Origin: Terebella lapidaria
Lineage: Eukaryota; Annelida; Polychaeta; Terebellida; Terebellidae
Direction of reading: 5' to 3'
Length of the DNA stretch: 64,000 bases
Assembly (NCBI GenBank): GCA_949152475.1
Contig: OX424558.1
Span: 35,474,651 to 35,538,650 of the forward strand
Below the pieces are notes generated by a model. That model saw nothing but the letters and a program-made list of their open reading frames with translations. It did not search any database and was not told the origin of the DNA. This document shows, one piece after another, positions 1,751-52,672 of this stretch (positions are counted from its first letter, which is position 1; each line of letters opens with the position of its first letter). Position numbers and translations under genes: made by a program.

Positions 1751-2375
1751 ATAACCATATGTGTAGTTGTGGTTGGAAATATATGAAACAAAAAGTTTCT
1801 CTGCAGTTTTGGGTTCTATCCGACCCATTACCGCTACATTTAAAAATCTAGAAAAATCTATGGAGGGATTTAGTCAGAATGTAGGTGAAACCAATATGGC
1901 CGCCGTCAATCAGTAAAATCAAGAAAAATAAATTGTTGATATATATGAGAACTGTACAGATGGATATAGGGCATATTGTAAGGCCTTTGAGTATCCCAGT
2001 GGTGCAACATTGAAATAGCTGATGTATTCGGCTATCGCCATGTCAAACTAGGTCATACTGGGCCCCTTAGCAACCGCGTTGCTATGGGCTACCACACATG
2101 GACTACACGTATACTGTTTGGGCTCGGTATTGCACTATATCTTCGTCACAGATCCCATAAACAAACAGGTAAATGATGATGTTCTGTATTTTGATTTTTG
2201 TGGCTGCATATATTCATAGCAACCAAGTCATCTGCCTTAGCAACCAATTGTTATATCATAGCAACGAGCTGGCCAATGGTGACAAACAGTTGGCATGGAG
2301 CAGATGGTATGGCCGACGTCACATCGTGCATGTAATTCATACCACCCATGCACATACAGAATTTTCTGGAAGCTC
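1751..2375. other. Gene-free stretch with AGCAACC-like words
   Basis: No gene or clear element. Several scattered words of the form tagcaacc or agcaacg occur between 2060 and 2270; they are too irregular to call a repeat. Confidence 0.4.
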
Positions 2376-2935
2376 CTACAAAAGCTGTAAAATCGATAAT
2401 AAGTGATATATTAGCCATTTTGTCCTGTGACCTTGAAAATGAGGTCAAAGGTCAAATTCAAGGTCATGACAATAATCTGCATATATCATTTCCTATATGT
2501 TCATAATTGATTGCTAAGCCTTGAAGTCGATAACAAGCGAGATATTAGCCATTTTGTCCTGTGACCTTGAAAATGAGGTCGAAGGTCAAATTCAAGGTCA
2601 TCAGAATATTCAGCATGCATCATTTCCTATATGTCCACAATTGATTCCTAAGCTGTAGAGTCGATAATAAGCGAGATATAAGCCATTTTGTGCTCTGACC
2701 TTGAAACTGAGGTCAGAGGTCAAATTCAAGGTCACGAGAATATTCAGCATATATCATTTCCTATATATAACCCATTTTGTGCTCTGACCTTGAAATTGAG
2801 GTCATAAGTAAAATTCAAGGTCACGAGAATATTCAACATATATCACTTCCCATAGATCCACAATTAATTCCTAGTCTCTAATCTCAATATCAAGTGAGAT
2901 ATTAGGCATAATGTGTCCTATTATAAAGCATAGGA
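2376..2935 (-). repeat. Degenerate AGGTCA-rich satellite monomers (about 134 bp)
   Basis: About four monomers in reverse orientation relative to the array at 23937-26250. Each carries aaggtca/tgacctt words followed by attcaaggtca, then a cat-atatcatttcctatatg spacer. They are more diverged from each other than the GAS2-intron array. Confidence 0.75.
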
Positions 2936-3357
2936 GAATTTACCATGGGAAAGTCCCATTTGGGCCGAGTTTGGGCCAAAATGGCCCACTTCGAGCGATT
3001 CAAGCGCAACGAAATTTATAGACATCATAGGAGTACATATGAGGAGTGTTATGTATCAAAAAGAAAAAAAAAATACTGAACAGATTTTGAGAAAATGGCC
3101 GCCAAAGTCCAAAATCATACATTTTTCGTCGAAAACGGCCGCCATTTTTAAAAAAATGCGAAAATCAAAAAACTAAAAAATACCTCCTTCTTGAATTATT
3201 TTAAAGTATTTTTGTGCAAAATTTCAGAAAAATTCGCCCGTAAACAAAAAAGATAAAAACGTGGACGACGACGACGACGACGACGGACGATGACGACGGA
3301 CGCAACGCCATGCCAATAGGTTAGTTTAAACATATTTATTTTAATTGGATTGTACAA

Positions 3358-18057: not shown

Positions 18058-21000
18058 AGACATTGGATAATTACACTTGTATATTCTGCATGTAGTTGAA
18101 ATGTCACAGTTTGTTTATTTTTTCAAAGAATTATTGTCAATAATAAAATATTATACTGAAAAAAATAATATAAGTAATATAAATAAATATTAAATAACAA
18201 TGTGTTCTCAGCTAAATGTATACTTTAGACATCAATGTATTAATGTCCATAATTACGGTGGTATGTACTAGTATTGTGCCCATAATGAATGATAGTGTAT
18301 TAAAAAAGAAACTCTCACTGATTTGGAGTGTTTATCAAGCATTACAAACATTGGCTTATATGCCCAAGAGCACTGAAAAGCTGATCACCAACCGAAATAT
18401 AACATACATGCCACTTGAAGCCTTGGCCCATATCAGTATGCATAGCTATGTAGTGTCAATGGGTCATGTCTGTTCATGTAATAAAGTTGTCCTTTAAGCT
18501 GCTGATATCAATTGAATGACAGGTAACGATGAATTTCATTGTATTGAAAGTATTGACTTTGGGGATCTTTCTGTATGTATTTTATAGTACCGGATATTAC
18601 AAAGATCTTTGTTCATCTACTGTACATGTAAATTTATCAATCTGTATTAATATTTTCATGTATGTCGTGTGTGTGTGTGGGGGGGGGGGGTATACTAATA
18701 CTTAGGGTCATTACTATCTACTTGTTGAGGTGTCAAGGTACATATATTATTAGGACATCTTAGGGAGTATAGTGTTCTTTCACATGTACAGTGGATTAAA
18801 TCTTTGTGGATTAAATCTTCTAAAGCTGCATGCAGCCTGTATACATATAATAAACGATAGATTTGTATTGATGCATATTTGTATGAATGTATAGCTTGCA
18901 TTTTATACATATGCAAGTGTATAATATGCTATGTAATTTTAAATGCAAGATATTGAAGTGAATATACCAATGATCTAATTTCAGACAGCGTGGGAGAGGT
19001 GGTGGCACTGGTGGTAATGTTGGTTTAAGGAGGCTGAGTCTTGCATTGCCCAACAGTCGGTGAGTTAGATGACTCATCCCCTGCTATGTATATACGTATG
19101 ACAGATCTGTTTCAAGTATGGCTCTATCCTATGTGATCAATGAGGGGATCAGATAAAATAATGCAGCTGCATCGAGCATATTTTGTTGGTTCATCCAGTG
19201 CCAGTGGAACATATTGAAATTATATACATTATTATGTTAAATTGAAAATGTAGTGCAGATTAACTCTTCTGAATTCATGTTTTATCAATCTCTTACTGAT
19301 TTATTTTACAGAAAAATTTCCATGAATGTATTTTCATCAAGCTGAAATGCGTTGATAAATGTTCCTACCCATATATATAATATATAAAGGACATTTATAA
19401 GTAAGTTTATAACAAAAGAAGTAAAGGACATTTCAATAACTGATTATACCATGTCATTGACATGAATAACAATTTACTGGTGATCTCATTGCCATGCAAT
19501 GCATACAACAGACAGTCCTCGAGTCATGCCCCGCGGCGTCGGTACAGTGTCAACCTGATGGAGGCGCCCCCTACGTTAGACGGGGAAGTTGGAAATATCG
19601 TCCGTCGCGCTTCACTGAGCGGGGACGATGACGCGGCGGACTTGGACTTCCTCACTGAACTCAAGGAGCAGGCTCTGACCCCCATCAAGGAGGACTTGGC
19701 AGAATGGCTCGCAAAGACTCTTGGTACGTATGGGTATTCGGGTACTGGATTACCATATACCAAGATTACCATTGCTTGTATCTAGTATAATGTGCCCTAA
19801 AACAGTCAAATTACATACCGATAAATCTGTGGAAAATAATGAATTTTCTTCATGATGCATCATGGGAGAGCTCTTGATGAAAAATTTTCAATAAAACATA
19901 TTTCCATTGAAGACTAGAATCTATATAGGATATAATATTGTACATATACATGTATGATATCCACAGAAATATTGTATATTCCTTGTATTTCAATCCGTCA
20001 GGTATAGAAATCAATGTGGACAACTTTATCGAGGTGTTGGACAATGGTGTGGATGTGTGTAGACTTGCACAGATCATAGACACAAAGGCTCGTGAAGCAG
20101 TAGCTAAGGGTGAATATAAGGAGGTAAGCCTATATAAATACATGTAGAATGATTCCGTATCACAAAATTAAATGTTGAATATATGCCTATTAAAATTTAT
20201 TTTACAGCCCAGTTTGCAGTTTTCAGCTTTGATGTTATAATATGTCCTTTTGCTCACTTGAATTTCAAGTCTAATATTTTGTTGGTTGTGTTGAAGAAAT
20301 GTTCAGTACCATAAAATTTGATGACATGAATACTGTTGAATTTTATTTGCATAGATATAGAGTCTTTATTTCGACTATTGTGTTCAGTATTTTGTAAATC
20401 TTCCTCACAGAAAATCCCAGACCGCCTTACTTTCCGCAACCAGGCTAAGTCCAACACTTGGTTCGCCAGAGACAACACAGCCAACTTCATCAACTGGTGC
20501 AAGGAGTTTGGGGTCAAACAGGAATGCTTGTTTGAAACGGAAGGTTTGGGTATGTCTATAGCCAACATAATGATTAAGGCATTTCGGCAGAAATGCCTTT
20601 ATGGTTTTGTCAGAATTCTTCTTTTTAGGTTACCGGACCTTTGGTCCGATAACCTATTGGCATGGCGTTGCGTCCGTCCGTCCGTCCGTCCGTCCGTCCG
20701 TCCGTCCGTCCGTCCGTCCGTCCGTCCGTCCGTCCGTCCGTCCGTCCGTCCGTCCGTCCGTCCGTCCGTCCGGCGTTAACATTTTTATCTTTAAAGTTAA
20801 TGATCGAATCTTTCTGAAATTTTGCACAAAAATGCCTAAAAATATTTTGAGAAGGAGGTATTTTTTTGTTTTTTGATTTTCGCATTTTTTTCAAAATGGC
20901 GGCCGTTTTCGTCGAAAAACGCTCAATTTTGGACTTTGACGGCCATTTTCTCAAAAACTGTCTGATCAGTTTTGAGTTTTTGGTTTCAAAAGATTCCCCT

Positions 21001-24000
21001 CATATACCTCTGTGATATGTATAAGTTTGGTTGCCCTAAATTCACCGGTTTCCGTGTGGCGGCCATTTTGAATTTTTGGCGGGTCGGCGAAAAAAATTTT
21101 TTTCGCCCCAAATCGCATTACTATCCATTTTGGGCCATTTCTAGGGCAAAAAAAAATTTTAACCCTTTGAAAAAAATTTTGGACTTAGAAAATTTTCAGC
21201 ACTTTTTTCCTTCATAATGGGAGCTGTCCGGACTGTACTCATAGAACGCTTGAAGATAGAGCTTAGAAATCGGCACTTTCAAATGGGAAGTCATATATGG
21301 CGACTTGTGTGGTGACCTTGAATTTGACCTTGGATGACCTTGAAAGGTCAAAACAGCCATTTTTGGGTCGAAAAACGCTCAAATTTGCACCTGGTCTGTA
21401 TTTTCTCAAAAACTGTCTGATCAGTTTTGAGATTTTTGCTTAAGAAGATTCCTCTTATATACCTCTGTGACGTGTATAAGTTTTGTTGCCCTTGAATCGC
21501 CGATCTCAGTGTGGCGGCCATTTTGAATTTTTGACGAGTCGGCGAAAAAAATTTTTTTCGCCCCAAATCGCATTACTATCCATTTTGGGCCATTTCTAGG
21601 CAAAAAAAAATTTTCACCCTTTGAAAAAATTTTTGGACTTAGAAAATTTTCGGCACTTTTTTCCTTCAAAATGGGAGCTGTCCGGACTGTACTCATAGAA
21701 CACTTGAAGATAGAGCTTAGAAATTGGCACTTTCAAATGGGAAGTCATATATGGCGACTTGTGTGGTGACCTTGAATTTAACCTTCGATGACCTTGAAAG
21801 GTCAAAACAGCCATTTTGGGGTAAAAAAAATGCCAAGATTTGCCTCTGTAGATGAAATGCTTGCAGATAGAGCTCATGTTTGCATTATGAACATATAGGA
21901 AGACATATATGGCACAACTAATGATGACCTTGAACTTGACGTCAGATGACCTTGAGTGCCAAATGTCTGACTTGGAATGTGTAATTTGACCTGAGCGGCC
22001 TAAACGATTCCACTCAAAATATAGAATATCAAATGCCGCACACATACATGTAATGGTCACATCGAAGTTCATACGGATGACCTTGATTGGTAAATCCCAA
22101 GGTCATATGTTTACACTGCGAACCTTGATTGGTAAATCTCAAAGTCTGTTACCTGCCAATGCTGCCATGGCCAAACCAAAATTGTCCGGTAACCTATCTT
22201 AGCCTTTGGGCTAATTTTTTTTTTTTTCTTCCGCCGTTTTCGTTTCCGCGCGATAACTCGAGAACCTCTCGACGGATCGACTTGAAATTTGCACCACTGT
22301 TCATACATATTATGTAGATGTGCTGTATAGTTTTGAAGTTGGATTCGAGGTCCGTGAGGTTGAAATTGAGGTCATTTTTTGGACTTCGTTTCCGCGTGAT
22401 AACTCAAAAACTATTCAGGCAATGGCTGCAAAACACTGCATGGAGGTTCATATATCAACAGGGAAACCCTATCGATTTTGGGATCAATCCGTCAAACGAC
22501 CTTTGACCTAGAGGTCAGAAGATTTTTCGCCAAGTCATCCTTGAGGTTTCCTGCATATCTCGGAAACGGTGCGTCGTAGAACAAAACGGACGTTATCTTT
22601 GGACTCTTCGCCCTATGTCTAGTGGGTATTAGGGATGACCTTTGACCTTGAATTTTTCTGCCGAGTCAGCATTTTTCGTTTTCGTCGATATCTCGGAAAC
22701 GGTGCGTCGTAGAGAGAAACGGAGGTTATTTTTGGACTCGTCGCCCTAGAAAAATATGTCTTAGGAGTATTAGGGATGACTTTTGACCTTGAGCTGAAAT
22801 TTTTTTGCCGAGTTGGCATTTTTCGTTTTGGCGATATCTCGGAAATGGTGCGGCGTACACCATTTTCGAGATATCGGAAATCTAGATACCCCCTAGACAA
22901 ACATGTCTATGGGGGTATTAGGGATGAACCTTGACCTTGACCTGAAATTTTTTTGCCGAGTCGGCATTTTTCGTTTTCGTCGATATCTCGGAAACGGTGC
23001 GTCGTAGAGAGAAACGGACATTATTTTTGGACTCGTCGCCCTAGACAAATATGTCTAAGGAGTATTAGGGATGACTTTTGACCTTGAGCTGAAATTTTTT
23101 GCCGAGTTGGCATTTTTCGTTTTGGCCATATCTCGGAAACGGTGCGTTGTACAGCGAAATGGACATTATTTTCGGACTCGTCGCCCTAGACAAACATGTC
23201 CATGGGGGTATTAGGGATGAACTTTGACCTTGACCTGAAATTTTTTTGCCGAGTCGGCATTTTTCGTTTTCGGCGATATCTCGGAAACAGTGCTTCTTAG
23301 AACGAAACATTATTTTTGGATTGGTCCCGCTAGACAAACATGTCTAAGTCGACATTTTTCATTTTCGGCGATATCCCATGGTAAACATTGTATGAACATT
23401 ATTAGGTTACCGGACCTATGGTCCGATAACCTATTGGCATGGCGTTGCGTCCGTCGTCCGTCGTCCGATGTCCGTCGTCGTCCGTCGTCGTCGTCGTCGT
23501 CCACATTTTTATCTTTTTTGTTTACGAGCGAATTCTTCTGAAATTTTGCACAAAAATACTTAAAAATAATTCAAGAAGGAGGTATTTTTTAGTTTTTTGA
23601 TTTTCGCATTTTTTTCAAAATGGCGGCCGTTTTCGACGAAAAATGCCTGATTTTGGACTTTGGTGGCCATTTTCTCAAAATCTGTTCAGTAACTTTTTTT
23701 CTTTTTGATACATAACACTCCTGATATGTACTCCTATGATGTCTATAAATTTTGTTGCGCTTGAATCGCTCGAAGTGGACCATTTTGGCCCAAACTCGGC
23801 CCAAATGGGACTTTCCCATGTTAAATTCTCCTATGCTTTATAATGGGACACATTATGCCTAATATCTCACTTAATATTGAGATTAGAGACTAGGAATCAA
23901 TTGTGGACATATAGGAAATGATATATGCTGAATATTCTCGTGACCTTGAATTTGACCTCTGACCTCAATTTTAAGGTCAGAGCACGAAATGTCTGATATC

Positions 24001-27000
24001 TCGCTTATTATCAACTCTACAGCTTAGGAATCAATTGTGGACATATAGGAAATGATATATGCTGAATATTCTGATGACCTTGAATTTGACCTTTGACGGC
24101 ATTTTCAAGGTCATAGGACAAAATGGCTAATATCTCACTTGTTATCGACTTTACAGCTTAGGATTCAGTTATGAACATATAGGAAATGATATGCAGATTA
24201 TTGTCATGACCTTGAATTTGACCTTTGACCTCATTTTCAAGGTCACAGGACAAAATGGCTGATATCTCACTTATTATCGACTCTACAGCTTAGGAATCAA
24301 TTGTGGACATATAGGAAATGATATATGCTGAATATTCTGATGACCTTGAATTTGACCTTTGACGGCATTTTCAAGGTCATAGGACAAAATGGCTAATATC
24401 TCGCTTGTTATCGACTTTACAGCTTAGGAATCAGTTATGAACATATAGGAAATGATATATGCAGATTATTGTCATGACCTTGAATTTGACCTTTGACCTC
24501 ATTTTCAAGGTCACAGGACAAAATGGCTAATATCTCACTTATTATCGATTTTACAGCTTAGGAATCAATAGTGGACATATAGGAAATGATATATGCTGAA
24601 TATTCTCGGACCTTGAATTTGACCTCTGACCTCAATTTCAAGGTCAGAGCACGAAATGTCTGATATCTCGCTTATTATCGACTCTACAGCTTAGGAATCA
24701 ATTGTGGACATATAGGAAATGATATATGCTGAATATTCTGATGACCTTGAATTTGACCTTTGACGGCATTTTCAAGGTCATAGGACAAAATGGCTAATAT
24801 CTCGCTTGTTATCGACTTTACAGCTTAGGATTCAGTTATGAACATATAGGAAATGATATGCAGATTATTGTCATGACCTTGAATTTGACCTTTGACCTCA
24901 TTTTCAAGGTCACAGGACAAAATGGCTGATATCTCACTTATTATCGACTCTACAGCTTAGGAATCAATTGTGGACATATAGGAAATGATATATGCTGAAT
25001 ATTCTGATGACCTTGAATTTGACCTTTGACGGCATTTTCAAGGTCATAGGACAAAATGGCTAATATCTCGCTTGTTATCGACTTTACAGCTTAGGAATCA
25101 GTTATGAACATATAGGAAATGATATATGCAGATTATTGTCATGACCTTGAATTTGACCTTTGACCTCATTTTCAAGGTCACAGGACAAAATGGCTAATAT
25201 CTCACTTATTATCGATTTTACAGCTTAGGAATCAATAGTGGACATATAGGAAATGATATATGCTGAATATTCTCGGACCTTGAATTTGACCTCTGACCTC
25301 AATTTCAAGGTCAGAGCACGAAATGTCTGATATCTCGCTTATTATCGACTCTACAGCTTAGGAATCAATTGTGGACATATAGGAAATGATATATGCTGAA
25401 TATTCTGATGACCTTGAATTTGACCTTTGACGGCATTTTCAAGGTCATAGGACAAAATGGCTAATATCTCGCTTGTTATCGACTTTACAGCTTAGGATTC
25501 AGTTATGAACATATAGGAAATGATATGCAGATTATTGTCATGACCTTGAATTTGACCTTTGACCTCATTTTCAAGGTCACAGGACAAAATGGCTGATATC
25601 TCACTTATTATCGACTCTACAGCTTAGGAATCAATTGTGGACATATAGGAAATGATATATGCTGAATATTCTGATGACCTTGAATTTGACGTTTGACGGC
25701 ATTTTCAAGGTCATAGGACAAAATGGCTAATATCTCGCTTGTTATCGACTTTACAGCTTAGGAATCAGTTATGAACATATAGGAAATGATATATACAGAT
25801 TATTGTCATGACCTTGAATTTGACCTTTGACCTCATTTTCAAGGTCACAGGACAAAATGGCTAATATCTCACTTATTATCGATTTTACAGCTTAGGAATC
25901 AATAGTGGACATATAGGAAATGATATATGCTGAATATTCTCGGACCTTGAATTTGAGCTCTGACCTCATTTTCAAGGTTCAAGGACAAACTGGCTCATAT
26001 CTTGCTCCTCTATTGACTGTATGGCTTGGGAATCAATTGTGGACATGATATAGAAAATGATATACACTGAATATTTTGATGACCTTGAATTTGACCTTTG
26101 CCCCTTCATTTTCAAGGTCACAGCACAAAATTGCTAATATCTCGCTGATTATTGAATTTACAGCTTAGCAATCAACTGTGGACATGATATATGCTTAATG
26201 TTATATATGCTGAATATTCTCTTGACCTTGAATTCAACCAGTGACCTGGCTAACATCTAAAATATTAAACATTGTCCGGTAACCTATCTTTGGCCCTTGG
26301 CCTAATTTTTTAATTAGTCTTAACACCGAAATGCCTCCAAGGCATCTTTAGGCCTTAACGTCTAGTCATTCGTGAAAGTACATGTACACAATGTTATGTG
26401 CAAAATTGTGCCACACTTGTCAACTCTTTGGATGGAAATGAATTCCACTTGAATGAAAGCAATCCTTAAAAAAATATATCTATAGTGATACTACCACTAA
26501 TACAGTATACATTCTATTAAAGTAAATTAGTCATTTGATTTGTAATTGATAATTATAATTAATCACATATCATCATTATTTCATTTTATTGAGATCACAA
26601 AATTTGATTCATACTCTGGCCCTTTTTACAATATAAAAATTTATCTCTGTAATTGCCAGTGTTACACAAGGAACCCCGTACAGTCGTGCTCTGCCTGCTG
26701 GAGTTGGCTCGACTTGGGGCAAAGTTCGGCCTCGAGCCTCCGAGTCTGGTCTCGCTGGAGTCTGAGATAGAAAGGGAGGAGAGCGGGAGTCAGTCATCGC
26801 AGTCGTCTGGGTCGGATGCAGCTAGTTCTAAAGGTGGAAGCCAGGGGGCCCCACAGGGTAAACAACGGAAAGGTTCAACATCATCCGTGTCTTCCACCAA
26901 AGGAGAGAAACTTGACACTGAGGTGGGTTTTCAGGATTGATAATTTTAAAACCCATTAAAAAATTATTCCGGTAAGATTCTGTATATACATTATAGATGT

Positions 27001-34198: not shown

Positions 34199-35605
34199 GG
34201 AACCCACGGTCCGATAACTTATTGGCATGGCGTTGCGTCCGTCGTCATTCGTCTTTGTTGTCGTCCACAAGGGCTTATCGGCCCTTTGGGCCAATAAGCT
34301 ATTGTCATGGTTTTTCGTCCGTCGTCCGTCCGGGTCTGTAACTTTTTTTTTGACATGATGAATTTCCCCATAAATTTGTCAGAACAGACCTTGGGCCAGT
34401 ATCTAAAGACAAAATTTTTTTTTGATTTAATCGTTTTTACCTATTTGGCGGCCATTTATGACGAAAAATTGCCAATTTTGAACTTTGGTGGCCATTTTCT
34501 CAAAAACTGTCTGATCAGTTTTGAGATTTTTGTTTCAAAACATTCCTCTCATGTACCTTTATGACGTGTATAAGTTTCGTTGCCCTTGAATCTCCGGTCT
34601 GCGTGTGGCGGCCATTTTGATTTTTCGACGGGTCGGCGAAAAAAATTTTTTTGTCCCAAATCCAGTCACTATTCGTTTTGAGCCATTTCCAGCAAGAAAA
34701 AAAAATTTTTTTTGGGTCATTGAAAAACTTTTTGGACTTGGAAAATTTCACCCAATTTTCCTTCATAATGAGAGCTGTGCAGAGTAAACTCATAGAACAC
34801 TTGAAGATAGAGCCTAAGTATTGGCACTTTCAAATGGGAAATCATACATTGCGGTTTGAGTGATGACCTTGAATTTGACCTTCAATGACCTTGGAAGGTC
34901 AAAACGACCTTTTTTGTCGAAAAATGGCCAATTTTGGACTTTGATGGCAATTTTCTCAAAAACTGTCCGATCAGTTTTGAGATTTTTGTTTTAAAACATT
35001 CCCCTCATGTACCTCCATGATGTCTATAAGTTGCATTGCCCTTGAGTCGCCGGTCTGCGTGTGGCGGCCATTTTGAGTTTTCGATGGGTCAGCGAGAAAA
35101 TTTTTTTGTCCCAAATGAAGTCACTACTCGTTTTGAGCCATTTCCAGCAAAATTTTTTTTGGCCATTGAAAAATTTTTTGGACTTGCCGGTCTGCATGTG
35201 GCGGCCATTTTGATTTTTTGATGGGTCGGCAAAAAAATTTTTTTTGTCCCAAATGAAGTCACTATTCGTTTTGAGCCATTTCCATCAAAATTTTTTGGCG
35301 ATTGAAAACTTTTTTGGACTTAGAAATTTTCACCCAAGTTTCCTTCATAATGTGAGCTGTGCAGAGTAAACTCATAGAAAGAACACTTGAAGATAGAGCC
35401 TAAGTATTGGCACATTCAAATGGGAAATCATACATTGCGGTTTGAGTGATGACCTTGAATTTGACCTTCAATGACCTTGGAAGGTCAAAACGACCTAAAT
35501 GCCCAATTTTGGATTTTTGATGGCCATTTTCTTAAAAACTGTCTGATCAGTTTTGAGATTCTTGTTTTAAAATATTCCCCTCATGTACCTCTATGATGTG
35601 TGTAA

Positions 35606-36041
35606 TGCTGCGTTCCAATCACGTTGTGCAAATGGTGCGCACGGGTTTCCGAGGAGTATTTTGCGTTCTATTCATGACACAACTGGGAAATTCCCATTTG
35701 CACAACCTGTGAAGTTGAGGCAGTTGTTCAGACTCAAAATGCACAAGTAGGAAAAACATGGCGCCAAATGGGGTATTGTATAAAAGTAATATATAATATA
35801 AACATTTTGTTAGTTATACCTAGTACCATACATACAGTATATGAATTAAATGATTCAATACTGAAATTTAAAGTAAAGATTTGACTGAATTTTCAATTAT
35901 TTTTGGCCTGAGTTAGTTCGAATTTTTATGCAATAATTAGGGTGGCAAAATGTGTGCCTTTTGTCATTGGAACACAACAACTCGTACTCTCCAACTTCCC
36001 GCTAGTGCACACCATTTGCACAACATGATTGGAACGCAGCA
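35606..36041. mobile_element. MITE with TAA target duplication (PIF/Harbinger-like)
   Basis: A 436-bp element with inverted ends TGCTGCGTTCCAATCA ... TGATTGGAACGCAGCA, pairing over about 37 bp with few mismatches. It is flanked by TAA at 35603-35605 and 36042-36044. The unoccupied sequence gtgtgtaagtttcgttgccc exists at 36938 in the neighbouring repeat copy, confirming a 3-bp duplication. A 3-bp TWA duplication is typical of PIF/Harbinger. No coding frame. Confidence 0.85.
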
Positions 36042-37105
36042 TAAGTTTCGTTGCCCTTGAATGTGTGGTGGCCATTTTGATTTTTCGATGGGTCGGCAAA
36101 AAACATTTTGTTTGGTCCAAAATCAAGTCCCTATTCGTTTTGAGCCATTTCCAGCCATTGAAAATTTTTTTGGACTTAGAAAATTTCACCCAATTTTAGG
36201 TTACCGGACCTATGGTCCTATAACCTGTTGCCTTCGTGTTGCGTCCGTCGTCCGTCCGTCGTCCGTCCACATCTGTATCTCAAAAGTTTACAGGCGGATT
36301 TTTCTGAAATTTTTCTGAAAAATGGCTAAAAATATTTCAAGAGAGTTTTTTTTCTAGTTTTTTTATTTTCGCTTTTTTCCCAAAATGGCGGCCATTTTTA
36401 CCGAAAAATGGCCAATTTTGGACTTTTGCGGCCATTTTGATTTTTTGATGGGTCAGCGAAAAAATTTTTTTGTCCCAAATGAAGTCACTACTCGTTTTGA
36501 GCCATTTCCAGCAAAAATTTTTTCGGCCATTGAAAAATTTTTTGGACTTGCCGGTCTGTGTGTGGCGGCCATTTCGATTTTTTGATGGGTCGGCGAACAA
36601 AAATTTTTTTGTCCCAAATATTTCCAGCAAAATTTTTTTGGCGATTGAAAACTTTTTTGGACTTGGAAATTTTCACCCAATTTTCTTTCATAATGGGAGC
36701 TGTGCAGAGTAAACTCATAGAACACTTGAAGATAGAGCCTAAGTATTGGCACATTCAAATGGGAAATCATACATTGCGGTTTGAGGGATGACCTTGAATT
36801 TGACCTTCAATGACCTTGGAAGGTCAAAACGACCTAAATGGCCAATTTTGGTTTTTTGATGGCCATTTTCTTAAAAACTGTCTGATCAGTTTTGAGATTC
36901 TTGTTTTAAAATATTCCCCTCATGTACCTCTATGATGTGTGTAAGTTTCGTTGCCCTTGAATGTGTGGCGGCCATTTTGATTTTTCGACGGGTCTGCAAA
37001 AAAATATTTTTTTGTTCAAAATCAAGTCACTATTCGTTTTGAGCCATTTCCAGCCATTGAAAATTTTTTTGGACTTTCACCCAATTTTAAATTTCACCCA
37101 ATTTT

Positions 37106-38765
37106 AGGTTACCGGACCTATGGTCCGATAACCTGTTGCCGTCGCGTTGCGTCCGTCCGTCGTCCGTCCACATTTGTATCTCAAAAGGTTACAGGCGGAT
37201 TTTTCTGAAATTTTTCTGAAAAATGGCTAAAAATATTTCAAGAGGGTTTTTTTCTAGTTTTTTGAGTTTCGCTTTTTTCCAAAAATGACGGCCATTTTTA
37301 ACGAAAAATGTGATCAGTTTTGAGATTTTTGTTTCAAAAGATTCCCCCTATGTACCTTTTTGACGTGTATAAGTTTTGTTGTCCTTGAATCGTTGGTCTC
37401 TGCGTGGCGGCCATTTTGAATTTTTGACGGGTCGGCGAAAAAAATTTTTTTTGCCCCAAATCGCATTACTATCCATTTTGGGACATTTCTAGGTAAAAAA
37501 AAATTTTCACCCTTTGAAAAAAATTTTGGACTTAGAAAATTTTCTTGACTTTCTTCCTCCATAATGGGAGCTGTCAGGACTGTACTCATAGATAATGTGG
37601 GCGTAGACACCAAAATTTTGCTTTTATCTGCCATAGCAGCTGAAATATAGCTGAAACGTGATTTTACGCATTTCTCGGGTTTTCGTGGCAGCCATATTGG
37701 ATTTTGAAACAACCAACAGTCACATAGACTCAACATTATCACCATTCGATTCCTTAGGTCAGAAAACGTGGGATTAGACACCAAAATTTTGCTTCTATCT
37801 GCCATAGCAGCTGGAATATAGCTGCAAAACATGATTTTACTGGATTTTGAAACAAGATTCAGCAATATCACCATCATGTTCCTAGGGTCAGAAAACATGG
37901 GGTAGACACTAAAATCACCAACGTAGGTGCAGTAGATAACTCGCTACATCAATTTTAAGCCATCTCGGATTTTTGGGAAAACCCCCCATGGGATTGATGG
38001 GGACTTTTTCGTGGGTTATCTATATGGTCTCCAGAGTCACTGTGCAAAAATTCAGCTTTAACACCCAAATGTCTACCCCAAACCCTAAATACAGTAATTT
38101 GACCAGGTCAAAACAGCCATTTTTGAGTCGAAAAATGCCCAAATTTGCACCTTGTCTGTCTTTAATCGAAAACTGTCTGATCACTCTTGAGATTTTTATT
38201 TTCAAAACATAGTAATTGGGGTTTTTGACATTGTGTATAAAGATGTATATAGTGTATAAAGTGCCTCGATTTGCTCAGAGGGCTCGAAATCTGATTGATT
38301 TTTTGGTCGTTTTCCTTTAAATTTATCTGATCAGTTTTGAGATTTTTGTTATAGAACATGCTAATTCGGGTCCCTGACATTGTGTATAAAGATGGAGTGC
38401 TTTGAATTGCTTAAAAGGCCCCTTGATTGTGTAAATTGGCCTCTACAGCCAAAATATTTTTGTATGTATAGCTGGAATTGGAAGTCATACATACCATTTC
38501 ATTTGGTGACCTTGAACTTGACCTCAGATGACATTGAGTGCTATATCTCAGTGTCACATCCATCAAGAATTGTGTGAAATTCGTCTATAGACAAGACTTT
38601 CAGATAGACCTTGTATTTGTATTTTGAACATACATGAATACAAGGTTATATGCTGCTCACTTAATGATGACATTGAAGTTCACGAAGATGACCTTGATTG
38701 GTTAATCTGAACGTCATATCTCAGCTGTCGTGTTTCAACTAAAATTGTCCGATAACCTATCCTAG
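37106..38765 (+). mobile_element. Helentron-like element copy E
   Basis: Starts AGGTTACCGGACC / GGTCCGATAACC and ends attGTCCGATAACCtatcctag; the 3' hairpin is reduced. It contains its own tandem piece at 37591-37910 (two units of about 171 bp sharing gtagacaccaaaattttgct and tctgccatagcagctg) not seen in other copies. Confidence 0.7.
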
Positions 38766-39175
38766 CTTTTTCCTTCATAATGGGAGCTGTGCGGAGTAAA
38801 CTCATAGAAGACTTCAAAATAGAGCCTAAGTATTGGCACATTCAAATGGGAAATCATATATTGCGGTTTGAGTGATGACCTTGAATTTGACCTTCAATGA
38901 CATTGAAAGGTAAAAAACGATGAATTTTGTCTTTGGTGGTCATTTTGTCAACATCTATTCAGACAGTTTTTCTCAAAATAATGTATAAGATTCTCTTTAT
39001 CTACCTTTGTAATGTGTAATTTGATTTCGTATTATAGTCCATGCGGAAAATGTGTTTCCAGCAACATTTACGAACATTTTTTGACAATTAGAGTTCAAGA
39101 TCAGTGTAACAATTTATATGTTGGAGAATCAATACTCTGCGTTTCTCATGATTGCCAGCGGTTATGCTATTATGA

Positions 39176-39494
39176 GCACTTGGGAAGTCGCATCTTTGGA
39201 AATATTGGTGACGTTGAAATTAATTGACCTCAAATGCAGAACTTGGCGTTTCAGTATGAATTTCCAGACATGTTTCAATATCTTTAGCTAAATTTGTCGT
39301 ATCTGACATTTCAGTGCACTGGAATTTATTTCTTGCTCTCTCAAACAAAGTTTAGCGCGCTGAAATTAGATACAATGTCATATGGGCTTAGTTATTCCAG
39401 CGCCCCAAAAATTTCTATTTCAACGTAAGGCCTAAAAAAATTAATTTTCTGTTTCTCGTCCCCGCCCGCCTGGGTTTCAGCCTCCCGGATTTTT
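39176..39494. other. Gene-free spacer between repeat copies
   Basis: About 320 bp without recognised features, ending in the T run that receives copy F. Confidence 0.4.
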
Positions 39495-40784
39495 AGGTTA
39501 CCGGACCAATGGTCCGATAACCTATTGCCGTAGCGTTGCGTCCGTCGTCTGCGGCGTCGTCTTCGTCGTCGTCCGTCCACATTTTTATTTTCAAAGTTTA
39601 CAGTCCAATCTTTCTGGAAATTTGGGAAAAGATACCTTGAAGAGGTATTTTTTATTTTTTTTATTTTTTATTTTTTTTCAAAATGGCGGCCGTTTTCGTC
39701 GAAAAACGGTCAATTTTGAACTTTGGCGGCCATTTTCTCAAAAACTGTCTGATCAGTTTTGAGATTTTTGTTTCAAAACATTCCTCTCATGTACCTCTAT
39801 GACGTTTATAAGTTTTGTTGCCCTTGAATCGCCGGTCTGCGTGTGGCGTCCATTTTGATTTGATTTTTTTGATTTTTTTTTCACTCAATTTTTCCTTCAT
39901 AATGGGAGCTGTGCGTAGTAAACTCATAGAACACTTCAAGATAGAGCCTAACTATTGGCACATTCAAATGGGAAATCATAGATTGCGGTTTGAGTGGTGA
40001 CCTTGAGTTTGACCTCGAAAGACCTTGGAAGGTCAAAACGTCCTTTTTTGTCGAAAAAACAAGAAATTTTGTCTTTTGTGGCCATTTTATCAAAATCTAT
40101 TCAGACAGTTTTCTTCAAAATCTTGTACAAGATTTTCGTCGACCTTTTCGTCGAACAGTCAAATTTTCCTCCGAAATCAAGTCACTATTCGTTTTGAGCC
40201 ATTTCCAGCAAAAAAAAATTTTTTTTAGCCATTGAAAAATTTTTGGGACTTGGAAAGTTTCACCAAAGTTTTCCTTCATATAAATGGGAGCTGTGCGGAG
40301 TAAACTCATAGAACACTTCAAGATAGAGCCTAAGTATTGGCACATTCAAATGGAAAATCATACACATGTATTGCGAATTGACTGATGACCTTGAGTTTGA
40401 CCTTCAATGACCTTGGAAGGTCAAAAAGACCTTTTTTGTCGAAAGAAACAATGATTTTTGTCTTTGGTGGCCATTTTCTCAAAATCTATTCAGATAATTT
40501 TCCTCAAAATGCATAAGATTCTCCATATATATCTTTGTGATGTTTAAAAGTTTTGTTGCCTTTGAATTGACAGTCTGTGAATATATTTCATTATCGAAAA
40601 AAATCTTTCAAGATGTAACTTGATTTCGTATTATAGTCATACAGAAAATGGGTCTCCGGCAACATTTACGATCATGTTTTGCCAATAGAGTTTAAGAACA
40701 ATGTAACAATTTGTATTTATGGAAAATCAATACTCTGTGCGATTCTCATGATTGCCGGTAACCTACAGCACCTTTGGTGCTATG
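39495..40784 (+). mobile_element. Helentron-like element copy F with variant 3' hairpin
   Basis: Starts AGGTTACCGGACC after a T run. Its body matches the C/D type (ccttcataatgggagctgtg, aactcatagaacacttcaag, tgaccttggaaggtca). It ends GCCGGTAACC, tac, then AGCACC-ttt-GGTGCT (40767-40781), a hairpin of different sequence but intact pairing. Confidence 0.72.
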
Positions 40785-40796
40785 TTTATCAATTTC

Positions 40797-41325
40797 ATTT
40801 ACAGTTTTGGTTAACTTTTATTTCGAATATCAATTTCGAACCTAATTTGGAACATATTTGGAGTAGAAATAGACCTTTTCAACACAAAATTTGATCTGGC
40901 TTCAATTTCATTGTTGTTTTGGTCAACACGTTGTTGGGGTGAAATGAACATGATGAAAAGTCTGATTCAGTTTAAATTATATCACCTTCAAATGCAGTTC
41001 TGGTCAACTTTTTGTTGTAATTTCAACTTGAAATCAAGTATTACACATATTTCGAGTGAAAATATAACGTATGGTCGGAAGTTGTATCTGGCTCCGATTT
41101 CGTCATCTTGACGTGCAGTTTGGTCAAGTTTTACTTAGAATTTCCACTTGAATCCAAGTTTGTCAAGTTCGTCTTGAAATTCAGTTTTGGTCGACTTTTA
41201 CTTTCTACTCAAAAAACCAAATTTGTCAAATATATTGAGTTGAAATATAACACATATTTTGGGTTGAAATATAACTTTTGGTGAAAGTTCGATCTGGCTA
41301 TAATTTTGTTATCTTATCGAATATG
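40797..41325 (+). repeat. Degenerate tandem repeat
   Basis: A unit beginning cagtt(tt/ct)tggtcaac, continuing through an aatttcaactt word, a ttgagt-gaaatataac word and ctggct-c-atttcgtt, recurs about three or four times with strong divergence. It lies between element copies F and G. Confidence 0.5.
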
Positions 41326-41448
41326 TCAAACGATAAAAAAAGTGATTTCAGTGGTGACCTTGAATTTATGTCGCAAGCACCAGGGCAATATAATACTAGG
41401 CCTACATTTCATGACAGCAGTTACAGGTACACTAGCTACGGTGACATT

Positions 41449-42852
41449 TGGTCCGATAACCTATTGCCGTGGCGTTGCGTCCATCGTCCGTCGTCCGTCC
41501 GTCCGTCCACATTTCTATCATTAAAGTTTACAGTCGAATTTTTCTGAAATTTTTGCACAAAAATACATAAAAATATTTCCAGGAAAAGTTTTTTTTTAGT
41601 TTTCTGATTTTCGATTTTTTTTTTCAAAATGGCGGCCATTTTCGACGAGAAATGTCAGATTTTGGACTTTGGCGGCTATTTTCTCAAAAATCTGTTCAGT
41701 AACTTTTTTCTTATTGGTGCATATCACTCCTCCTATGATCCTGTATGATGTGTATAAGTTTCGTTGCCTTTGAATCGACGGAAATTGCCTGAATTCAGAC
41801 TTTGGCAGCCATTTTCTCAAAATCTGTTCAGTAACTTTTTTTCTCATTGAAGCATAACAATCCTCATATGTACCCCTATGAAGTGTATAAGTTTCGTTGC
41901 CCTTGAATCGCTCGAAGTGGGCCATTTTGGGCCCAAACTCGGCCCAAATGTGACATCCCCTTGTTAAGTTTTCCTATGCTTCATAATGGGACACATTATG
42001 CCTAATATCTCACTTATTATTGTGATTAGAGACTAGGAATGAATTGTGGACATATAGGAAATGATATATGCTGAATATTCTCATGACCTTAAATTTGTCC
42101 TTTGGTCTCATTTTCAAGGTCGCAGTACAAAATGGCTAATATCTAGCATATTATCCACTTTACAGCTTAGGAATCAATTGTGGACATATTGGAAATGATA
42201 TATTCTGAATGTTATCGTGACCTTGAATTGACCTTTGACCTAATTTCAAGGTCACAGGACAAAATGGCTAGTATCACGCTTATTATCGATTTTACAGCTT
42301 AGGAATCAATTATGAACATATAGGAAGTGTTATATGCAGATTATTCTCGTGACCTTGAATTTGACCTTTGACCTAAATTTCAAGGTCACAGCACAAAATA
42401 ACTAATATTTCGCTTATTATCGATTTTACAGCTTAGGAATCAATTGTGAACATATAGAAAATGATATATGCTGAATATTGCCATGACCTTGAATTGGACC
42501 TTTGACCTCATTTTCAAGGTCAAAGGACAAAATGGCTAATATATTGCTTCTCTATTGACTCTATAGCTTGGGAACCAATTTGGACGTATAGAAAATGATA
42601 TACACTAAATATTTTGATGACCTTGAATTTGACCTTGACTTTATGTTCAAGGTCAGAGCATAAAATGGCCAATATCTCGCTTATTATCGACTGTACAGCT
42701 TACAAATCAATTTTGGACACCCTAGAAATGATATATGATGAACATTCTTGTGACCTTAAATTGACCAATGACCTTATTTTCAAGGTCACGGGACAAAAGA
42801 CTAATATCTAAAATATATATTGTCCAGTAACCTTTCTTAGCCCTTGGGCTAA
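41449..42852 (+). mobile_element. Helentron-like element copy G
   Basis: The first hairpin arm is lost; it starts TGGTCCGATAACC. The conserved 5' body is followed from about 42000 by roughly six AGGTCA-rich satellite monomers. It ends TGTCCAGTAACC, tttc, then TTAGCCC-tt-GGGCTAA (42837-42852) and a T run. Confidence 0.75.
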
Positions 42853-42941
42853 TTTTTTTTATTTGCAATTTACTTTTTTATTCAGCAATTTGCACAAAAT
42901 AATTTCGAATTTAATTTTTCTGTTTATGAATTTACTTTTCT

Positions 42942-44518
42942 GGAATTACCAACCTTTGGTCCGATAACCTATTGCCATGGCGTTGTGTCCATCGTCCGTC
43001 GTCGTCCATCTACATTTTTATCTTTCAAGTTTACGGACGAATCTTTCTGAAATTTTGCACAAAAATGCCTATATATATTTCAAGAGGGAGGTATTCTTCA
43101 GTTTTTTTATTCTTGAAATATGCTCAAAATGACAGCCATTTTTGAAGAAAAGCGGCTAATTTTGGACTTTGACGGTCGTTTTCTCAAAAACTGTCTGCTC
43201 AGATTTGAGATTTTCGTTTCATAAGATTCCACTCATATACTTTTGTGACATGAATAAGTTTCGTTGCCCTTGTATCGCCTGCCTGCGAGTGGCGGCCATT
43301 CTGATTTTTTTCGACGGGTCCCTAAAGGCAATTTCCCATATTAAATTCTCTTATGCTTTATGATGGGACACATTATTGCTTATATCTCGCTTAATATTGG
43401 GATCAATATAAAGTGACTAGGAATCAATTGTGGCCATATAGGAAATGATATATGCTGAATATTTTCGTGACCTTGAATTTGACCTTTGACCTCATTTTCA
43501 AGGTCATAGAACAAAATGGGTAATATGTCACTTATTATCAACTTTACTGCTTAGGAATCAATTGTGGACATATAGGAAATGATATATGCTGATTATTCTC
43601 ATGACCTTGAACATGACCTTCGACCTCAGTATCAAGGTCAAAGCACAAAATGGCTAATATCTCACTAATTATCGACTTTACAGCTTGGGAATAAATTGTG
43701 CACATATAGGAAATGATGTATGCCGAATATTTTGATGACCTCGAGTTCGACCTCTGACCTCATTTCCAAGGTCAAAGCACGAAATGACTAATATCTCACT
43801 CAATATCGACTTTACAGCTTAGGAATCAATTGTGTACATATGGGGAGTGATATGGGCTGAATATTCTCGTGACCTTGAATTTGACCTTTGACCTCATTTT
43901 CAAAGTCAAAGCACGAAATGGCCAATATCTCACTTAATGTCGACTTTACAGCTTAGGAATCAATTGTGGACATACAAGGAGTGATATGTGCTGGATATTC
44001 TCTTGACTTTGAATTTGACATTTGACATCATTTTCAAAGTCTGAACACAAAATGGCTAATATCTTGCTTATTATCGACTTTACAGCTCAGAAATCAATTG
44101 TGAACGTATAGGAAATGATATATACTGAATATTCTCATGATATTGAATTTGACTTTTGACCTTATTTTTTCAATGTCAGAGCTCAAAATGGCCAAGATCT
44201 CGCTTTTTATTGACTTTACAGCTTAGAAATCAATTGTGAACCTATAGGAAATGATACTCTAGTACTAGTATCCTGCATATATTTTCGTCACCTTGAATTT
44301 GACCTTTGACTGTATTTTCAAGATCTCAAAATAACTAATATTTCGCTTATTATCGACTTTACAGCTTAGGAATCAATTGTGGACATACTATAAATGATAT
44401 ATGCTGAATATTCTCGTGACCTTGAATTGACCAATGACTTTATTTCCCAGGTCACGGGACAGAAGGCTAATATCTAAAATATATATTGTCCGGTAACCTT
44501 CCTTAGCCATTGGGCTAA
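42942..44518 (+). mobile_element. Helentron-like element copy H
   Basis: A degenerate 5' end (aattaccaacctttGGTCCGATAACC), a shortened 5' body, then about eight satellite monomers (43400-44470) more diverged than those in copy B. It ends GTCCGGTAACC, ttcc, TTAGCCattGGGCTAA (44503-44518) and a T run. Confidence 0.73.
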
Positions 44519-44652
44519 TTTTTTAATTTTTAATTTACTTCTTTTTAATTCAACAACTTGGGTTGCCCCTTCATGGTAACTTACGCGATTTTCCCCCGAC
44601 TTCCATATCAGGTCGAATGCCAATTTTCAGGCTTAATACTATGGGGCATGAC

Positions 44653-51112: not shown

Positions 51113-52672
51113 TTAATATTGCTGCTATTCAGCCCAAACGCATTATATCCTATTTTGATAGACTGAAATATGATGGGATATATAATGTAACATCACCATA
51201 ACTAAAATCGCACACACCGAATGAAAAGTTTAATGTTGAATCCATATATCCAATACCTACATATGTCCATGGCATAGTTTCAGGGAACAAAAACTATCAC
51301 AAACCTTTTGACAGGGATCTCGACTAGTTTCAAATTCACTGTGAATCACTCATCTTTATGTACTGGTTATTCTATGATATAAAGTTGCACTTTATCCACA
51401 AATGAATGCACCCGTAATCTATTACTAGCTACTATATGTATTCGGCATGAAATATGATATAATTTACTTGTACCACTTGAATATACACCTACAAATGAGT
51501 TGGAAATGTGGCCTCGCTTCTGATTGTCCAAAATGCTTTATACTTTATAGCATATGAAGCATATAGGCGTATAAGCTTTATAGCATATTCTTTATAGCAT
51601 ATGAGCTTTATAGCATACCGGTCAACTTTATAGCATATAAGCTTCATAGCATATAAGCTTTATAGCATATACTTTATAGCATACTTTATAGCAATATGTA
51701 AAATATATATATAGGATTTGAGAAACTGATAAAAAATGTTGTTTTACAAGGGAGCGACTTTTTTCGTCAAAGCTTACGAGTCTATACTGTCGATCATGAA
51801 CTTTACAGCATGACCATGCTGCCTGGCAATCTGGGCCATTGCTTCCATGTCAGTTCACAAGATTCAATTAGTGGCTGCCCATCGGACTACAGATTCACGG
51901 AGGACATTTCAAGATAACACTTCTAAACAGTTTTAGGAGTATTAAATAAGAAGTCTCGACGTTTACCGTTCAGTTTTTTCACACACTTCCTTGACGGTTC
52001 TGTCTAACGAAGACAAACGACATTATTTGTGAATTTTCGTAATACAATTTTGCCACAAATTTTCGAGCCATTTGTATCAGGTATTATTTAAAGTTATGAT
52101 TTGATAGAAGTTTTGCCATGATATTCAACATTGTAACACTCTGATACTGAGCAACACCGGTCGTGGAAAATTATATGGCTTAGTGGATGATCAAATAATG
52201 CTCATACAAAGGGCAGTATTCTTGTATCAATAATAATTCAAATTGTTCTGTTCAATTTGGGAATGTTTGTTCAAATGGAGAATGAGTATGAAACTCTATT
52301 TACACGTTCCCTGGGATCTCTGTTCATATTTAATGTAAGTCATGTTTGATCGATTACTAACCGAGACTACGTTCGGGTTGTGCACATCTATTTGTGTTTA
52401 CTTTGCTGTTTCCACAATGATATAATCATTGCTACTGATTACGCCCAACTACTATTCGAGTAACTGTAATCTTTACTTCTTCTGAATTACCACTCATATC
52501 AGTGGGCACTAATTAACATATTTATCTCACCTAAATCCATACCAATAAGAGTTGCACGTATGATGTGGATGCACTCATGAAATACAAGATACCAATTATA
52601 ACTTCAGCCAATTTCTCGGCAAGAAGGTAGGATCCTATGTATTATGACGGTTTATAGATCGTCCTCGGTGCT
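49947..52672. repeat. Segmental duplication, copy 1 (partner 53752-57112)
   Basis: Aligns collinearly with 53752-57112 from tttgagaaaacagaaatgtc to gtttatagatcgtcctcggt-gctgcacaag. Includes a CAA microsatellite (51078-51111), twice-repeated ttaatattgctgctattcag (one copy in the partner) and a TTTATAGCATATAAGC array (51536-51692). On the minus strand an open stretch at 50870-50711 is flanked by good splice words (gttacag before, tatg|gtaagg after), a possible exon of an unknown gene. Confidence 0.75.
51536..51692. repeat. Short tandem array of ctttatagcatataag units
   Basis: About nine irregular units of 15-22 bp. The partner duplication has its own version at 55915-56048. Confidence 0.8.

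Follow-up and report, generated by a model that had tools for sequence, protein, structure and literature searches.

Two sequence-unrelated families of probable Helitron2/Helentron-group elements nested in a GAS2 intron of Terebella lapidaria

In the oyster Crassostrea gigas, 11 HINE elements have been described, some of which are unrelated to one another in all modules, and the parts of that report drawn on here identify no partner for them (Vojvoda Zeljko et al. 2020, PMC7492417). Here we report two families of comparable elements in the genome of the annelid Terebella lapidaria, where two copies of one family (copies A and B, the inner family) are nested within a single element of another (the outer family) in an intron of a GAS2 gene. 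The window, that is, the whole stretch of DNA analysed, comprises 64,000 nucleotides (C4:35474651-35538650), and the genome searches span 761.6 Mb in 438 contigs. Positions are those of the window, and the features of the nested interval lie on its forward strand. The comparisons with published systems refer throughout to selected parts of the papers cited.

The oyster elements, Cg_HINE, combine a subterminal inverted repeat (subTIR), an inverted repeat, a microsatellite, a 3' subTIR and a 3' palindrome with a central array (140-180 bp in the oyster), take a TT target without duplication, and are inserted in introns and other repeats (PMC7492417). The annelid families resemble them in all these respects, as well as in being unrelated in all modules and in having no identified partner, and differ from them in their sequences, in the reciprocal nesting of two families, and in the numerous Rep-helicase genes of the genome. 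Two unrelated families following one plan were already reported in the oyster paper, and the present families are another instance. As in Helitron2 (Bao and Jurka 2013, PMC3627910), a 5' asymmetric terminal inverted repeat (ATIR) lies 0-2 bp from the end within a 5' hairpin, a 3' ATIR precedes a 3' hairpin, and compensatory changes occur; the algal examples of Helitron2 insert after TTTT, to which the inner family is similar, whereas the outer family takes TT. Palindromic subTIRs, a 3' palindrome, central repeats and a T-rich target with a variable number of Ts are shared with the Helentrons and HINEs, including DINE-1 (Thomas et al. 2014, PMC4067079), and the Rep proteins carry an OTU domain both there and here; unlike in those systems, no partner with shared ends was found here in the four Rep 5' regions read. 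Helentrons and Helitron2 are separated by an endonuclease, and the present families would fit the Helitron2/Helentron group taken jointly. The outer family, with its CTAG 3' end and subterminal inverted repeats, also recalls the Helitron/Helentron intermediates of C. gigas, which differ in using an AT target and a TC start (Penaloza et al. 2021, PMC7992393); in that study C. gigas yielded no autonomous element, in contrast to the present genome with its many long Rep-helicase frames.

Two inner-family copies within one outer-family element

The preliminary description of this DNA had placed two elements of one plan within a third, sequence-unrelated element of the same plan inside a GAS2 intron, and this holds with small corrections. 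The exons flanking the nested interval code for a CH domain according to a domain scan, and the sole solved-structure match of the host protein in the PDB is 9kbx_A, growth arrest-specific protein 2 (E 3.1e-35). The intron follows the CH-domain exon read from the sequence at 20411..20549 and extends over 6,110 bp (about 20550-26659), the exon resuming at about 26660; 5,790 bp of it are occupied by the outer element with its two inserts (20576..26365), delimited by genome-wide ends and their pairing. In order, the intron contains the outer 5' hairpin, a T-rich zone that copy A interrupts, an array of 147-bp units and copy B, followed by the inverted 5' end, the 3' hairpin and CTAG. The end plan is common to both families: a 5' hairpin is followed by a zone that is T-rich or a microsatellite, then by tandem repeats in the interior, a short inverted 5' end and a 3' hairpin. 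They share no obvious sequence, as had been claimed: blastn of 30 outer copies against 30 inner copies together with A and B gave no match at E<=1e-10. The accompanying claim that the interval has no open reading frame (ORF) may hold in the sense of no recognisable gene: nine ORFs of at least 80 aa overlap the interval, one of them running out of the GAS2 exon, and the two of these nine that were scanned against Pfam had no match. An Rfam search of the window also returned no match.

The outer family has the ends AAGGCATTTCGG..GACGTCTAG. In the window copy, the TT at the 5' junction (20574..20575), which may belong to the target and/or the element, is followed by the 5' hairpin AAGGCATTTCGGCAGAAATGCCTT (20576..20599), whose first arm is the 5' ATIR; its DNA fold has -9.9 kcal/mol, and none of 200 shuffles was as good. 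The subterminal T-rich zone (20600..20626) was the target of copy A, and in other outer copies it is a continuous poly-T. Tandem repeat detection delimited the 147-bp array at 22636..23293 (4.5 units), and sequence comparison identified the 3' ATIR CCGAAATGCCT (26326..26336) as the inverse of the 5' arm. The 3' hairpin AAGGCATCTTTAGGCCTT (26339..26356) is followed by the terminal 9 nt (26357..26365), which end in CTAG and precede a T; for this 3' region the fold program favours another pairing, of the ATIR with AGGCAT. The element had been given the span 20574-26357, the place of which is right and the 3' end 8 bases too short, since conservation among other copies runs on through GGCCTT-GACGTCTAG, up to 26365 in the window copy.

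Copies A (1,588 bp, 20627..22214) and B (2,902 bp, 23404..26305) both begin with AGGTTACCGGACC..GGTCCGATAACCT and finish with TGTCCGGTAACCT, a hairpin and a T-run; the family ends read AGGTTACCGG..hairpin-T. The two copies have 96% identity over the first 57 bp around the 5' end, and judged by these ends A and B are members of one family; the interiors are unlike. Copy A has a 5' hairpin (20627..20655), a CGTC microsatellite (20671..20772), a 454-bp unit present twice (20911..21829), a 3' ATIR inverse to the 5' end (22183..22195) and the 3' hairpin TTAGCCTTTGGGCTAA (22199..22214). Copy B has a 5' hairpin (23404..23432), a CGT/CGTCCGT microsatellite (23448..23502), a tandem array of 17.7 units (23855..26234), a 3' ATIR (26273..26285) and a weak 3' hairpin region TTTGGCCCTTGGCCTAA (26289..26305). 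Of the array lengths given earlier, the 147 bp of the outer element were measured again, while the 133 bp of copy B became 134 bp and copy A carries the 454-bp unit instead. The 5' hairpins of A and B were matched by none of 200 shuffles in either copy, and the 3' hairpins are weaker than the 5' ones (5/200 shuffles as good for the outer element, 6/200 for A and 41/200 for B).

Elsewhere in the window, further inner-type arrays and 5' ends are present at 2207-3302 (minus strand) and in a nested cluster at 34500-44520. An inner-like 5' end of a sister type (..GGCCCTTTGGGCCAATAAGCT..) lies at 34265-34300 inside another inner-type microsatellite, and two separate short arrays, both of a CTTTATAGCATATAA unit, occur at 51543-51685 and 55913-56032.

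Genome-wide copies, insertion sites and hairpin covariation

With up to 3 mismatches allowed, 3,699 outer 5' ends, 4,132 outer 3' ends and 17,519 inner 5' ends were found genome-wide, and the reversed-pattern controls gave 0. Over the first 18.6 Mb of C1, 61 of 76 outer 5' ends had a 3' end on the same strand within 6 kb, at a median of 2,258 bp, compared with 1 of 76 in the wrong-strand control; of the 100 5' ends and 100 3' ends listed, this pairing used the 76 5' ends located up to 18.55 Mb and 99 of the 3' ends. The loci sampled for closer comparison, L001-L030 for the outer and L061-L090 for the inner family, are not random, being the first exact matches to the window's ends on C1. In these samples, picked for exact ends, the median pairwise identity of a 350-bp core was 97% among 28 outer and 96% among 28 inner copies. 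The outer and inner elements are real interspersed families. The outer copies L011 and L012 (C1:1392631-1393355) lie 696 bp from each other, share their flanks and represent a tandem duplication of the element together with host sequence.

Insertion takes place at T, the outer family using TT and the inner family mostly T-runs, and nothing beyond T was seen to be duplicated. In 35/35 forward-orientation contexts the outer element is preceded by TT, and the run of Ts before the element is exactly two in 25 of the 30 outer loci and four or more in 27 of the 30 inner ones; CTAG at the outer 3' end is followed by T in 9/9 contexts and by TT in 7/9. Outer locus L003 lies inside a 134-bp repeat of an inner element, for which the intact 134-bp repeats of the window and of other loci provide the empty site: the empty repeat has TT and the filled one TT[element]TT, with the other bases unchanged. 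No duplication of other bases accompanies the inner copies that sit in the poly-T zone of outer elements (copy A of the window and L087) or L084 in another sequence. A second candidate empty site for the outer family (L012 compared with L023) matched weakly and was not relied on. Target duplications of fixed length, which had been named as evidence that would contradict the preliminary description, were absent, as nothing was duplicated beyond T in the contexts and empty sites examined.

Nested insertions were frequent among the sampled loci. Judged by their flanks, two of the 30 outer copies lie in inner elements and one in an outer element, and 11 of the 30 inner copies lie in inner and three in outer elements, on top of copies A and B of the window. 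Such reciprocal nesting shows that the activity of the families overlapped in time, not that they have a common enzyme. For nested insertions found by their 5' flanks, the best match was on the strand of the host element in 17/17 cases. TTTT makes up 57% of TTTT plus AAAA in inner copies and 92% in outer copies, and the chance of the same-strand outcome from T-richness is 0.002 for the 11 inner-in-inner cases, so that T-richness of the strand accounts for only part of this bias.

Head-to-tail junctions of the outer family occur at 12 places genome-wide, seven of which read exactly CTAG-TT-AAGG (two of these 2.5 kb apart on C11), with 0 in the reversed control. That they arose by repeated insertion into T beside existing copies, and not as rolling-circle concatemers, is a distinct possibility, if not one that we would favour. 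Both boundaries offer TT, the T-run ends of inner elements are themselves targets, and five of the 30 inner loci (L062, L070, L077, L080 and L083) immediately follow the 3' end of another inner element; by rough expectation, however, about 0.1 junctions would result if insertion into a boundary TT were random, as opposed to the seven exact ones, though hot spots could also yield them.

Compensatory changes in the 5' hairpin of the inner family are evidence that it is maintained. Inner 5' ends altered at stem position 3 have 1,266 matches genome-wide. In the 45 readable copies among 100 listed, counted as copies and not as events, pair 3-27 is C-G in 34, T-G in 2 and unpaired in 9, and pair 11-19 is C-G in 30, A-T in 15 and unpaired in none; the combinations seen, C-G with C-G in 28 copies and C-G with A-T in 6, imply a minimum of two double changes. 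The covarying subfamily has the ends AGCTTACCGGCCC..GGGCCGATAAGCT. For the outer family, a search for hairpin variants returned 23 places.

Classification, rival explanations and Rep-helicase genes

We consider it highly probable that both families are non-autonomous, HINE-like elements of the Helitron2/Helentron group, moved in trans by Rep-helicases of the same genome that would probably belong to different autonomous lineages. This placement draws on the two defined ends, the abundance, the targeting of T, the covarying hairpin, the head-to-tail junctions, the reciprocal nesting and the resident Rep-helicase genes. As in Helitron2, the 5' ATIR lies 0-2 bp from the end and is paired in the 5' hairpin in the outer element, A and B, and the 3' ATIR lies just upstream of the 3' hairpin, 20-30 bp from the 3' end, the hairpin being weak in B. 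As in HINEs and Helentrons, insertion is at TT or T-rich sites without target duplication, T-only duplication aside, and central tandem repeats are combined with a microsatellite and an absence of coding capacity, for which two of the nine ORFs were scanned. The HINE/Helentron plan that had been proposed is supported for both families, and neither fixed duplications nor the ends of a cut-and-paste transposase appeared. Canonical Helitron1 elements, with 5' TC, 3' CTRR, insertion between A and T and no 5' hairpin, do not match, as the outer element has CTAG but starts with AAGG after TT, the inner elements have neither the TC start nor the CTRR end, and both families have 5' hairpins.

Transposition would start with Rep nicking one strand at the T preceding the 5' hairpin, and the nicked strand would be displaced by replication. 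The 3' ATIR would then pair with the 5' ATIR and open the 5' hairpin, following the endpoint model of Bao and Jurka, and the single strand or a circle would be joined into a T-rich site. At the present locus, the outer element would have inserted by chance in the GAS2 intron, the two inner insertions following later.

A Pfam PF14214 profile search of the genome gave at least 150 Rep-domain matches from 234 candidates, all those listed being above the cut-off, and many of them lie in open frames of >2,000 aa. PIF1 and Rep share one long frame at, e.g., C2:19.97M, C14:32.62M and C6:40.64M, and the scanned Rep fragments carry DUF6570, OTU and Helitron_like_N in 5/5 cases. The 30 best-scoring Rep loci form 7 clusters at 90% identity. 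Among the listed matches, seemingly clustered and near-identical copies are located at C6:36.4-43.1 Mb, C14:31.4-32.7 Mb and C3:39.3-39.6 Mb. In tblastn, the 30 Rep fragments, which cover the N-terminal half to Rep only, had no match at 1e-2 in the 30 outer loci, the 30 inner loci or the window. Several long pairs of outer ends on C1 (8.7, 9.1, 13.9, 15.4 and 16.4 kb) coincide with none of the listed Rep or PIF1 matches (150 of 234 and 150 of 351 candidates, respectively) and may be cases of missed 3' ends or nested copies. Two of the four Rep 5' regions read share a 14-15-bp palindrome, TTCAATCAA(A/G)TTTT..AAAATTTGATTGAA, which lies 330-960 bp upstream of the start codon, and that of L033 has a perfect 30-bp palindrome; these palindromes may be putative candidates for element ends.

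Several results weigh or may weigh against the Helitron2/Helentron placement. The four Rep 5' regions, those of L051, L054, L038 and L033 (2.0-2.3 kb each), contain the ends of neither family at <=5 edits, and no autonomous element with outer or inner ends was found in these four regions, which include no 3' end. A search for an autonomous outer element through atypical 5' ends that lack the T zone gave 9 places, none of them at a listed Rep match. The 3' ATIR predicted to match the covarying inner subfamily had 0 matches, as opposed to 27 for a hybrid and 13,668 for the main form, in a search that assumed the downstream letters of the main family, so that this result no more than may count against the placement. 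The 3' hairpin of copy B is no better than chance, and a duplication consisting of T alone may have taken place, being compatible with T-run targets.

The preliminary description had gone further and suggested that one rolling-circle machinery mobilises both families, to be checked through a Helentron with shared ends. Neither such a Helentron nor a shared ORF was found among the four readable Rep loci, and the suggestion is unsupported. A single Rep-helicase lineage recognising structure and not sequence would agree with the common end plan and with the overlapping activity indicated by reciprocal nesting, and is nonetheless unlikely in our judgement: the number of Ts preferred at the target differs, the 3' ends differ (CTAG-T in the outer family and a hairpin followed by a T-run in the inner one), the genome holds several Rep families, and the published HINEs are 84-99.9% identical to their own Helentron (PMC4067079). 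Given the different targets and 3' ends, two enzymes, each serving its own family, would be likelier than a single one. Cut-and-paste miniature inverted-repeat transposable elements (MITEs), piggyBac-like at TTAA or of another superfamily with terminal inverted repeats (TIRs), are very improbable, although TTAA stands at the start of the window copy and GGCCTTAA close to its 3' end. The 3'-proximal TTAA is absent in other contexts, where all but one of nine 3'-end contexts differ from the window at the first A of the TTAA after GGCC and the element continues to CTAG; the ends are asymmetric, nothing beyond T is duplicated, the right flank is TT in 7/9 contexts only, and the TTAA duplication and TIRs of piggyBac-like MITEs were not observed. 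Least probable of all is local segmental duplication or satellite expansion in place of transposition, for which the internal tandem arrays and the locally duplicated L011/L012 pair might be cited, but which is contradicted by thousands of dispersed copies with constant ends and different flanks and by the empty site for L003.

A 9-mer common to the arrays of both families

The 9-mer TCAAGGTCA is present in the arrays of both families, with 135 sites in 29/30 outer copies and 157 in 26/30 inner copies, whereas the background is 1 site in 43 kb of the window outside set-aside repeat regions and 0 in 108 kb of Rep loci. The window has 76 sites, 42 of them inside the nested element, compared with 0.8 expected under a first-order model. 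The 9-mer occurs in 121/131 outer 147-bp units and in 14/14 of the 134-bp units cut out of inner copy B, more than once per unit in 7/131 and 12/14, respectively, and the differently built copy A has 7 sites; the chance of finding it in one 147-bp unit is 0.0009-0.0026. Outer segments of the window and A/B have 22 distinct 11-mers in common (simulated mean 2.6, maximum 11), mostly around TGACCTTGA. A motif reading is weakened by the total sharing of 9-mers, which exceeds a rough expectation no more than about twofold (15 vs about 7), and by the sharing of TCAAGGTCA having been noticed afterwards and not predicted. The 9-mer contains AGGTCA, which we take to be a nuclear-receptor half-site, with a TCA extension. 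That the unrelated HINE families converged on, or exchanged, a putative half-site of this type as the core of their arrays, their spread scattering receptor-binding sites that may help the elements by keeping copies accessible in the germ line, is a conjecture that we regard as rather doubtful. Titles and abstract openings in the literature on Helitrons with nuclear-receptor sites, or on the 9-mer in transposons, showed no precedent, which is not proof of absence. DINE-1-like elements supply sites for the male-specific-lethal complex in Drosophila miranda (PMC4067079).

A different motif, AAATGGCGGC, occurs in 21/30 inner copies (L061-L090) and in 0/30 outer copies. It resembles a YY1 site.

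With these families, the picture of HINEs drawn from the oyster extends to a further genome, one that still has many long Rep-helicase frames and in which compensatory changes are evidence for maintenance of the 5' hairpin. The question of a partner left by C. gigas, as described in the parts of PMC7492417 drawn on here, can be settled in the present genome via its Rep loci. If the TCAAGGTCA sites are bound, the tens of thousands of dispersed copies would constitute a ready source of intronic regulatory sites.

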